A stretch of DNA of 48,880 nt from positions 1-48,880 of the forward strand of contig JANXYN010000032.1 in assembly GCA_025356035.1 (NCBI GenBank), in the 5' to 3' direction. The translations under genes were made by a program, and so were the position numbers. Each line of letters begins with the position of its first letter. Position 1 is the first letter of the stretch. Origin of the DNA: Geobacteraceae bacterium. GTDB taxonomy: Bacteria; Desulfobacterota; Desulfuromonadia; Geobacterales; Geobacteraceae. Shown here in pieces: positions 28,979 through 30,713 of this stretch. The notes under the pieces were generated by a model. That model saw only the letters and a program-made list of their open reading frames with translations, was not told where the DNA came from and ran no database searches.

Positions 28979-30328
28979 ATGGCCGATCTTCCCATAGTAA
29001 GTGTCGATGCCGGGCTACTTACCACGCTCAACCGCTCGAAATCCTTCACCTTCAAGGAAGGGGAGGTCTTGCAGGGGGTGGTGGTTGAGCGCAACGCGGT
29101 CGGCGGGGTTACCATTGCCATCAAAGGGGTGCTGTTGGTGGCGCGATCGGATCTGGAACTGCCGCAGGATACCGCGCTGTTCTTCCGGGTTGCAGCCGAG
29201 CAGAACGGCAAGGAGCTCAGGCTCCAGTTCCTGGGGCCTGCAGAGCAAAAGGCAGCGGCACCTGCCGTGGCAGCCAGCGGAGAAAAAGAGCTGGCTGGAC
29301 TAATGCGTGCATTCTCCTCTGCAGTGGGGACAAATCCGGAGAAACTGACTGCTGAGGCCGTGGAAGGATTCCTGAAAAACTTGCCGGCCGGCGTCGAGCT
29401 GCCAAAGGCCGTCAAGGAAGAGCTGGTGGAGTTGCTTCGGACCTCCCTGAAAAGCTCTGGACAAGGGGTGAGCCAGCGACTCACTGATTTATCCGGTCAG
29501 CTGCCGGCGACGTTGCGGGATCTTCCAGCCCTGGCAGAGCTTCGTCAAGGCCTGCATCTAAGCATGGCTACCCTGAGCGCCGCTTCCCTAAAACAGGCCC
29601 TGCAAGATACCGGCGTGGGCCTGGAGGCTAAACTAAAGCTCCTCGCCCAAGCCGTTCAGCCACTGCTCAAAGGCGACCCAGAGCCGACAGTTGCCACTGG
29701 AAGAGTCGGCACAAACCAATGGGGCGGCCCGCGGGGCGAATTGCAAGCCGGCACTCTGCAGCAGCAGTTTTCGATAGAGGCGGATCTGGCAAGGGACCTG
29801 AAGGGAAAATTACTGCAACTCGGCCAGGTCCTCCGGCAAGAGGCACAGCCGGGCGCAAAAGAGTCATTATCACGCGATCCTCAACCGGGGCAAGCGGCCA
29901 TGCAGCAGATCGATGGGCTACTGCGCGACATTGGCACACTCCAGCTCCTCTCCCGGGCGACCGGCTCTTTTTACACCTTTCTCCCGCTAGCCTGGGAAGG
30001 GCTGAAAGAAGGCGAGATCGCACTCAAGAAGGGACGTGGCCGGCCGGGAATGCCGTCATGTTCATGCCGGATCGATCTCGATCTGGCCCAGGCCGGCAAG
30101 CTTGTCATTACGGTGTTATTGCACAATCAGGAGTTCTTCGTCACCTTTAAGGCGGGCAATCCCGACTTTAAGGCGAGACTGGACAGCCACCTGGACGAGT
30201 TGCGGGATAGCTGCCAGCAGAAGGGGGTGCCGGTAAAAGGGGTGAACATTCTCGACCTGGCGGACACCTCCGCGGACCCGCTAGAAAACCTGGAGGCGTA
30301 TGACGAGCTGCTGAGCGTCCAGGCGTAG
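28979..30328 (+). CDS. FliK-like hook-length-control domain protein
   Basis: Protein of 449 residues. The N-terminal region (about 1-80) is a small beta domain (FTFKEGEVLQGVVVERN, VTIAIKGVLLVARSDLELP). The middle is helical, Ala/Leu/Gln-rich and probably extended. The C-terminal 100 residues (IDLDLAQAGKLVITVLLHNQEFFVTFKAGNPDFKARLDSHLDELRDSCQQKG) have the pattern of the flagellar hook-length-control (FliK) C-terminal domain. FliK measures hook length and switches export specificity through FlhB. The next gene encodes an FlhB C-terminus-like protein, which supports the call. No other flagellar gene is in the window. Similarity is by pattern only, so I hold it as probable. Confidence 0.6.
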   Translation: MADLPIVSVDAGLLTTLNRSKSFTFKEGEVLQGVVVERNAVGGVTIAIKGVLLVARSDLELPQDTALFFRVAAEQNGKELRLQFLGPAEQKAAAPAVAASGEKELAGLMRAFSSAVGTNPEKLTAEAVEGFLKNLPAGVELPKAVKEELVELLRTSLKSSGQGVSQRLTDLSGQLPATLRDLPALAELRQGLHLSMATLSAASLKQALQDTGVGLEAKLKLLAQAVQPLLKGDPEPTVATGRVGTNQWGGPRGELQAGTLQQQFSIEADLARDLKGKLLQLGQVLRQEAQPGAKESLSRDPQPGQAAMQQIDGLLRDIGTLQLLSRATGSFYTFLPLAWEGLKEGEIALKKGRGRPGMPSCSCRIDLDLAQAGKLVITVLLHNQEFFVTFKAGNPDFKARLDSHLDELRDSCQQKGVPVKGVNILDLADTSADPLENLEAYDELLSVQA

Positions 30329-30413
30329 AACGGAAGATGGGAGAGAAGTGACCTGTGAAATGGCGATCGAAAGCTTTCAAGCTGTCACGTGTGTCGGTTT
30401 GTAGGAGTGGACA

Positions 30414-30713
30414 TTGATAGACAGGCCTAAAAAAGTAGTGGCACTTGGTTACCAGGCGGATCGGGATGCCGCCCCGCGCGTAATTGCCAAAGGTGCCGGT
30501 GAGATGGCGGAGCGGATTCTGCAGCTGGCGAGAGAGCACCAGATTCCACTCAAGGAGGACCCACCCCTGGTGGAAATCCTTTCCGCCCTCGATCTGCATC
30601 AGGAGATCCCACCGGAGCTCTATCAGGTGGTTGCCGAGATTCTCGCCTACGTTTATCGCACCACTGGCAGAGGGAATGCCGGAACAACTGCTAACCAGCA
30701 GAGGGGCGATTGA
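30414..30713 (+). CDS. FlhB C-terminal-domain-like protein (FlhX)
   Basis: Protein of 99 residues matching the cytoplasmic C-terminal domain of the type III export switch protein FlhB/YscU. Visible are [32 protein letters not shown], then [13 protein letters not shown] and [17 protein letters not shown], which align along the FlhB C-domain. There is no membrane part, and the protein starts where the FlhB fragment begins after NPTH autocleavage; NPTH itself is absent. Such free-standing FlhX proteins can partly stand in for the FlhB C-domain in other bacteria. TTG 30414 has GTAGGAG at 30401-30407. It follows the FliK-like gene by 85 bases. Confidence 0.85.
   Translation: [99 protein letters not shown]

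Follow-up and report, generated by a model that had tools for sequence, protein, structure and literature searches.

A second FliK-domain gene (FliK2) and, directly downstream of it, a gene for a free-standing FlhB C-terminal domain (FlhX) form a two-gene unit found in at least eight bacterial phyla and nearly always accompanied by a flagellar export gate in the same genome. FliK and FlhB are the proteins that tell the flagellar export machine when to switch cargo, and the usual description of the switch has a single FliK and a single FlhB. We think it probable that the pair adds a second, cytoplasmic copy of this switch, accessory to the main export gate. The evidence counted in favour includes the domains and folds of the two proteins, their adjacency, their co-occurrence with FlhB in three samples of genomes and the joint ancestry of both genes. 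It also includes the placement of the pair near flgBC-fliEF in some genomes, its conservation across phyla, the retention of canonical FliK and FlhB and the title of a study on HP1575 of Helicobacter pylori. The copy that we analysed lies in a contig of a Geobacteraceae bacterium (JANXYN010000032.1, positions 1 to 48,880, the whole of which we call the window). Its features are the following.

28963..28967, plus strand: AGGAG ribosome-binding site of FliK2, read from the sequence
28979..30328, plus strand: FliK2, FliK-domain protein of 449 aa (PF02120, E 4.7e-11, residues 362-425)
29036..29248, plus strand: OB/S1-like beta-barrel N-domain of FliK2, residues about 20-90 (model, VIA-align, HMM)
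29984..30271, plus strand: switch core of FliK2 (substrate-specificity-switch, T3S4 / FliK C), residues 336-431 (5CUK, 2RRL, hhalign)
30305..30325, plus strand: C-terminal tail of FliK2, ELLSVQA, with alternating hydrophobic residues at the extreme end (tail pattern)
30403..30407, plus strand: AGGAG ribosome-binding site of FlhX, read from the sequence
30414..30713, plus strand: FlhX, free-standing FlhB C-terminal domain of 99 aa with a TTG start (PF01312, TIGR00789, fold 3B0Z_B)
32631..33899, plus strand: serS, a context gene only, which also adjoins the pair in Nitrospirota loci

The original prediction had placed a FliK-type C-domain in the upstream gene, and the profile search bears this out: PF02120 matches FliK2 with 42.8 bits, above its curated cut-off of 29.8. 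The AlphaFold model (mean pLDDT 67, higher in the C-terminal domain) shows an OB/S1-like barrel (strands 30-87) that is joined to the C-terminal core by a helical region. The barrel aligns to S1/OB domains with VIA-align Z scores of 5-7. When the model was searched against the PDB with Foldseek, the top two matches were 5CUK, the PscP switch domain, and 2RRL, the FliK C-domain, both with a probability of 1.00 and with modest E-values (0.013 and 0.073). The VIA-align Z scores of the core, 6.4 for 5CUK and 6.2 for 2RRL, are suggestive and not strong by the tool's own note. The zinc-transporter rows of the Foldseek list were disregarded, having an rmsd near 20. A sequence search of the PDB with the FliK2 alignment gave a weak match to PscP (5CUK, E 0.48) and otherwise chance matches to immune receptors, and the PHROGs search gave no match for FliK2. 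Profile-profile alignment (hhalign) of the cores of the pair with canonical FliK reached 97% probability for the set gathering the window, Nitrospirota, Aquificota and Campylobacterota. Geobacterales (96%) and Bacilli (95%) came close to this value, and the two small sets, Negativicutes and Planctomycetota, reached just 33-36%.

The downstream gene had been described as a free-standing FlhB C-domain starting exactly where the autocleavage fragment would. The domain is confirmed and the exact start is not. PF01312 matches FlhX with 78 bits (E 9.9e-22) over profile positions 263-335, which is the C-terminal quarter of FlhB only, and the first fold matches of the FlhX model are the FlhB C-domains 3B0Z and 3B1S. 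The protein has no transmembrane part, in a genome that also carries a full FlhB. Aligned by eye with that FlhB (VITNPTHYAVALKY), it starts three residues ahead of the N|P cleavage point, and the position of the start differs among relatives. The NPTH motif was found in none of the 92 FlhX compared, the window copy included. The family TIGR00789 ('flhB_rel') matches with 107.4 bits (E 3e-31), which misses the curated NCBIfam cut-off of 117.35 by ten bits, and one unnamed PHROGs family is also matched.

These proteins share the folds of the known switches and depart from them in architecture. The switch core of FliK2 has the fold found in canonical FliK and in PscP of the injectisome pair PscP-PscU (5CUK, 2RRL), and FlhX has the C-domain fold of canonical FlhB and PscU (3B0Z, 5CUL). 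Unlike canonical FlhB, FlhX has neither membrane anchor nor NPTH, and unlike canonical FliK, FliK2 has an OB-like domain in place of the N-region. Both occur beside canonical FliK and FlhB, not instead of them.

In this genome the pair is extra, because full FlhB, FlhA and canonical FliK are also present. The full-length FlhB is encoded on contig C188; its identity is 52-64% to the FlhB proteins of the order and 44% to the one from a Nitrospirota genome. FlhA is found as two pieces at contig ends (C115, C135), and canonical FliK lies on contig C27, where the next ORF reads as FlgD. FliK2 sits instead behind dnaJ, and not with flgD/flgE in the flagellar cluster as a canonical FliK would. It is not a substitute for FliK either: every pair-bearing relative has another, stronger FliK-domain gene. 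A dedicated type III system for the pair was rejected, since the genome search gave one FlhB, one split FlhA and one canonical FliK. This search revealed no second export gate, be it a second FlhB, a second FlhA or another gate gene. Thus, where a separate or auxiliary switch had been proposed, the co-occurrence with FlhB described below supports the auxiliary module of the main gate, and the lack of a second gate gene leaves the separate system unsupported.

We then turn to the distribution of the pair. Among 58 genomes of the order, 47 encode FlhB and 42 of these encode FlhX, which is absent from all 11 FlhB-negative genomes. In each of the 42 FlhX-bearing genomes, FlhX is immediately preceded, on the same strand, by a second FliK-domain gene, which the five flagellated genomes lacking FlhX do not have. 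In the larger samples we counted second matches, which are an upper bound for FlhX. They occur in at most 120 of the 185 FlhB-positive genomes of the phylum sample (296 genomes) and in 3 of its 111 FlhB-negative ones, two of which do have FlhA. In the phylum of Brevibacillus (398 genomes), the figures are at most 237 of 327 FlhB-positive genomes and two clear cases among 71 FlhB-negative ones. All these counts were tallied by us from tables, and related genomes are not independent. The prediction would have failed had the pair been equally common in genomes without type III export genes; the contrast in the order (42/47 versus 0/11) is the opposite, and the larger samples agree. This strong bias towards genomes that have type III export genes supports the view that the pair is an accessory of the main flagellar gate. 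When named genomes were scanned, the pair was identified in Nitrospirota, Aquificota, Bacillota, Planctomycetota, Campylobacterota, and Desulfobacterota, and also in single MAGs of Actinomycetota, Fibrobacterota, and Hydrogenedentota. Across phyla, the stop and start codons of the two genes very often overlap (ATGA).

Some of these observations count against a flagellar unit. About 30% of the FlhB-positive genomes outside the order lack the pair, as do the five flagellated relatives (of 47) mentioned above, and PF02120 matches at E 1e-3 in just 31 of 64 distant upstream partners. Five draft genomes (G154, G347, G350, G358, G369) encode FlhX, and neither FlhA nor FlhB was found in them. One of these, G358, has a canonical FliK, so that incomplete bins are a likely cause of such cases. 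They nevertheless bear on an alternative that we consider unlikely, in which the pair descends from flagellar proteins and serves another role, for example a regulatory or nucleic-acid-linked one via the OB-like domain of FliK2. The few MAGs with FlhX and without FlhA or FlhB would fit such a role, as would the OB/S1-like fold of the N-domain and the usual housekeeping neighbours of the pair, such as serS, rnhB, and sucC. Yet the exceptions are drafts, two further apparent exceptions have FlhA, the co-occurrence with FlhB is strong in three samples, the pair lies beside flgBC-fliEF in some relatives, and FliK2 shares a FliK-type tail with canonical FliK.

The genomic position of the pair differs between genera. 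In the window it is indeed far from flagellar genes, as had been noted, but this is specific to the lineage, because in some relatives the pair precedes flgB, flgC, fliE, and fliF by some 5-10 kb on the same strand (Pfam identified FlgB and FliF; FlgC and FliE were recognised from their sequences). What had been described as an unrelated locus is one of several lineage-specific placements. In Bacilli the pair lies between rnhB and sucC. In the window, serS is three genes from the pair, with thpR-like and PGA_cap genes in between; it adjoins the pair in four out of four Nitrospirota loci, in a gene orientation that differs from that of the window, and was found near the pair in none of the other loci compared. 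A candidate sigma-28 promoter (GCCGATAA at 28878-28885) was rejected: the octamer occurs three more times in the window and the -35 box is poor. The search for such promoters upstream of the pair in relatives gave nothing above background, which we also counted against a flagellar unit. Between dnaJ and the pair, positions 28222-28758 encode a PLD-family protein (PLDc_2, E 6.5e-21), previously described as an exported nuclease, which is the end of a longer ORF starting at 27907. Two other ORFs of the window, at 13425-14714 and 14513-15466, match pair-bearing loci elsewhere (46% to L049/L050, 37% to L073).

The comparison of relatives shows that the FliK-like partner has an architecture of its own, newly noted here, made of an OB-like N-domain, a switch core and a hydrophobic C-terminal tail. 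An HMM of the N-barrel, seeded with seven FliK2 copies and then iterated, matches 67 of 88 FliK2 partners, including all 20 Geobacterales copies, and none of the 22 canonical FliK proteins. It also finds the OB-like domain in most copies of Bacilli. The tail, a short hydrophobic stretch such as VDLRI or LDVRA, is present in 54 of the 56 FliK2 outside Geobacterales and Negativicutes, against a background of 4.2% among other long ORFs; the pattern was composed after inspection of the sequences, and the background set contains non-gene ORFs. It is absent from the 20 Geobacterales copies (L037-L056) and from the FliK2 of Negativicutes (L093, L102, L104, L106, L123, L125, L136). The window FliK2 keeps it, unlike the Geobacterales copies. 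The canonical FliK of this genome ends with the similar LVDLRL, and many other canonical FliK (among them L004, L035, L036, L140, L141) have hydrophobic tails such as LVDLRL, LLDVRF, VDLFA, or LLDVTV. Judging from these sequences, the tail is possibly a general switch motif common to canonical FliK and FliK2.

Tail and FlhX are not strictly coupled, since the tail-less FliK2 of Geobacterales and Negativicutes still have FlhX alongside. This persistence of FlhX would agree with the two proteins acting separately, each backing up its own paralogue, their adjacency being an old operon kept by inertia. The report on HP1575, a stand-in for the FlhB C-fragment alone to judge from its title, points the same way. 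We nonetheless find separate action unlikely, as the two genes are adjacent in 42 out of 42 relatives and across phyla even though their surroundings change, and as FliK2 and FlhX of the window agree in their nearest kin.

This shared kinship is not with the order. By sequence comparison, the window pair is not of the Geobacterales type, a new observation, and both of its genes group with Nitrospirota. In the concatenated tree, it branches with two Nitrospirota genomes (support 96/90), outside the clade of the order (100/99), and the nearest kin are identical for the two genes. Forcing the pair into the order is narrowly rejected (AU test, p 0.04; 0.054 for FliK2 alone). The full-length FliK2 scores 243 bits to Nitrospirota, and its highest score within the order is 15. 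No other carrier of a window-type pair was found among 277 genomes of the class. A contaminant contig was rejected: the serS of the contig is single-copy with 71-82% identity to that of the order, and the base composition is even. The pair thus seems to travel, or to be retained, as one cassette, because both genes group with Nitrospirota, are alone in the class and have serS nearby in both lineages. These results fit the transfer of the pair as a unit, and they also fit an old pair that was retained here and lost elsewhere; the shared linkage to serS, with differing gene orientation, does not decide between the two.

A lone copy that is atypical for its class could also be a dispensable relic, without present function in this genome. 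The 85-base gap between FliK2 and FlhX and the TTG start of the latter, against the tight coupling seen in relatives, would be in line with decay. We judge this very improbable, given that both frames are open and have ribosome-binding sites and that neither the tail at the C-terminus nor the conserved residues of the core have been lost. As a tentative extension of the accessory role, FliK2-FlhX might constitute a distinct second layer in the control of export specificity, built from proteins of its own architecture. Such a two-gene cassette would pass from phylum to phylum and join the flagellar gate already resident in another lineage; the window might then record one swap, in which the pair of the order was replaced by a Nitrospirota-type one while FlhB and FliK stayed native.

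How could an accessory copy of the switch act? The pair belongs to a known kind of gene unit that is uncharacterised; our literature search found no paper on FliK2-FlhX as a unit. HP1575 of H. pylori is FlhX, a homologue of the C-terminal part of FlhB, reportedly a 'spare part' of FlhB in the words of the title of the study. Restoration of export after deletion of the FlhB C-fragment is said to occur for HP1575 only. Like the window protein, HP1575 is a free-standing FlhB C-domain beside a full FlhB in the genome; the comparison relies on the title of that study, and the window FlhX is 10 bits under the TIGR00789 cut-off. By analogy with HP1575, FlhX, having no anchor and no cleavage motif, may dock on the main gate at the site of the cleaved FlhB C-fragment, where it would replace this fragment or compete with it. 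FliK2, in which the OB-like domain stands where the usual N-region of FliK would be, might engage FlhX, FlhB, or both through its switch core and tail, and would thereby fine-tune the transition from hook-type to filament-type cargo or provide a backup for it.

The pair also resembles ylqG-ylqH of Bacillus subtilis, which lies in the order rnhB-ylqG-ylqH-sucC. In the Bacilli loci compared, FliK2-FlhX are also found between rnhB and sucC. The window FliK2 resembles this type in that a FliK-domain gene with an OB-like N-domain lies directly upstream of FlhX on the same strand, with just about 15-20% identity to the copies of Bacilli. In Nitratiruptor, flhX-fliK were listed outside the main flagellar cluster and the pair was not analysed (PMC9321776); the gene pairing and the separation from the main cluster are the same as in the window.

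That extra copies of both partners are so widespread, and stay together while locus and phylum change, suggests that many bacteria have a layer of backup or tuning which the standard model lacks. A lineage in which a foreign pair sits on a native gate would offer a direct test: should the foreign FlhX function with the native FlhA/FlhB, their contact surface must be conserved, and should it function with its own FliK2 alone, FlhX and FliK2 are true partners. The native flhB has a peculiarity of its own. Downstream of it comes a Fic-like ORF and, farther on, at 5277-5360 on the minus strand of its locus (L173, genome G000, contig C188), a second copy of the flhB 3' end (34 protein letters). It looks as though an incoming cassette had inserted at the end of flhB and doubled it.
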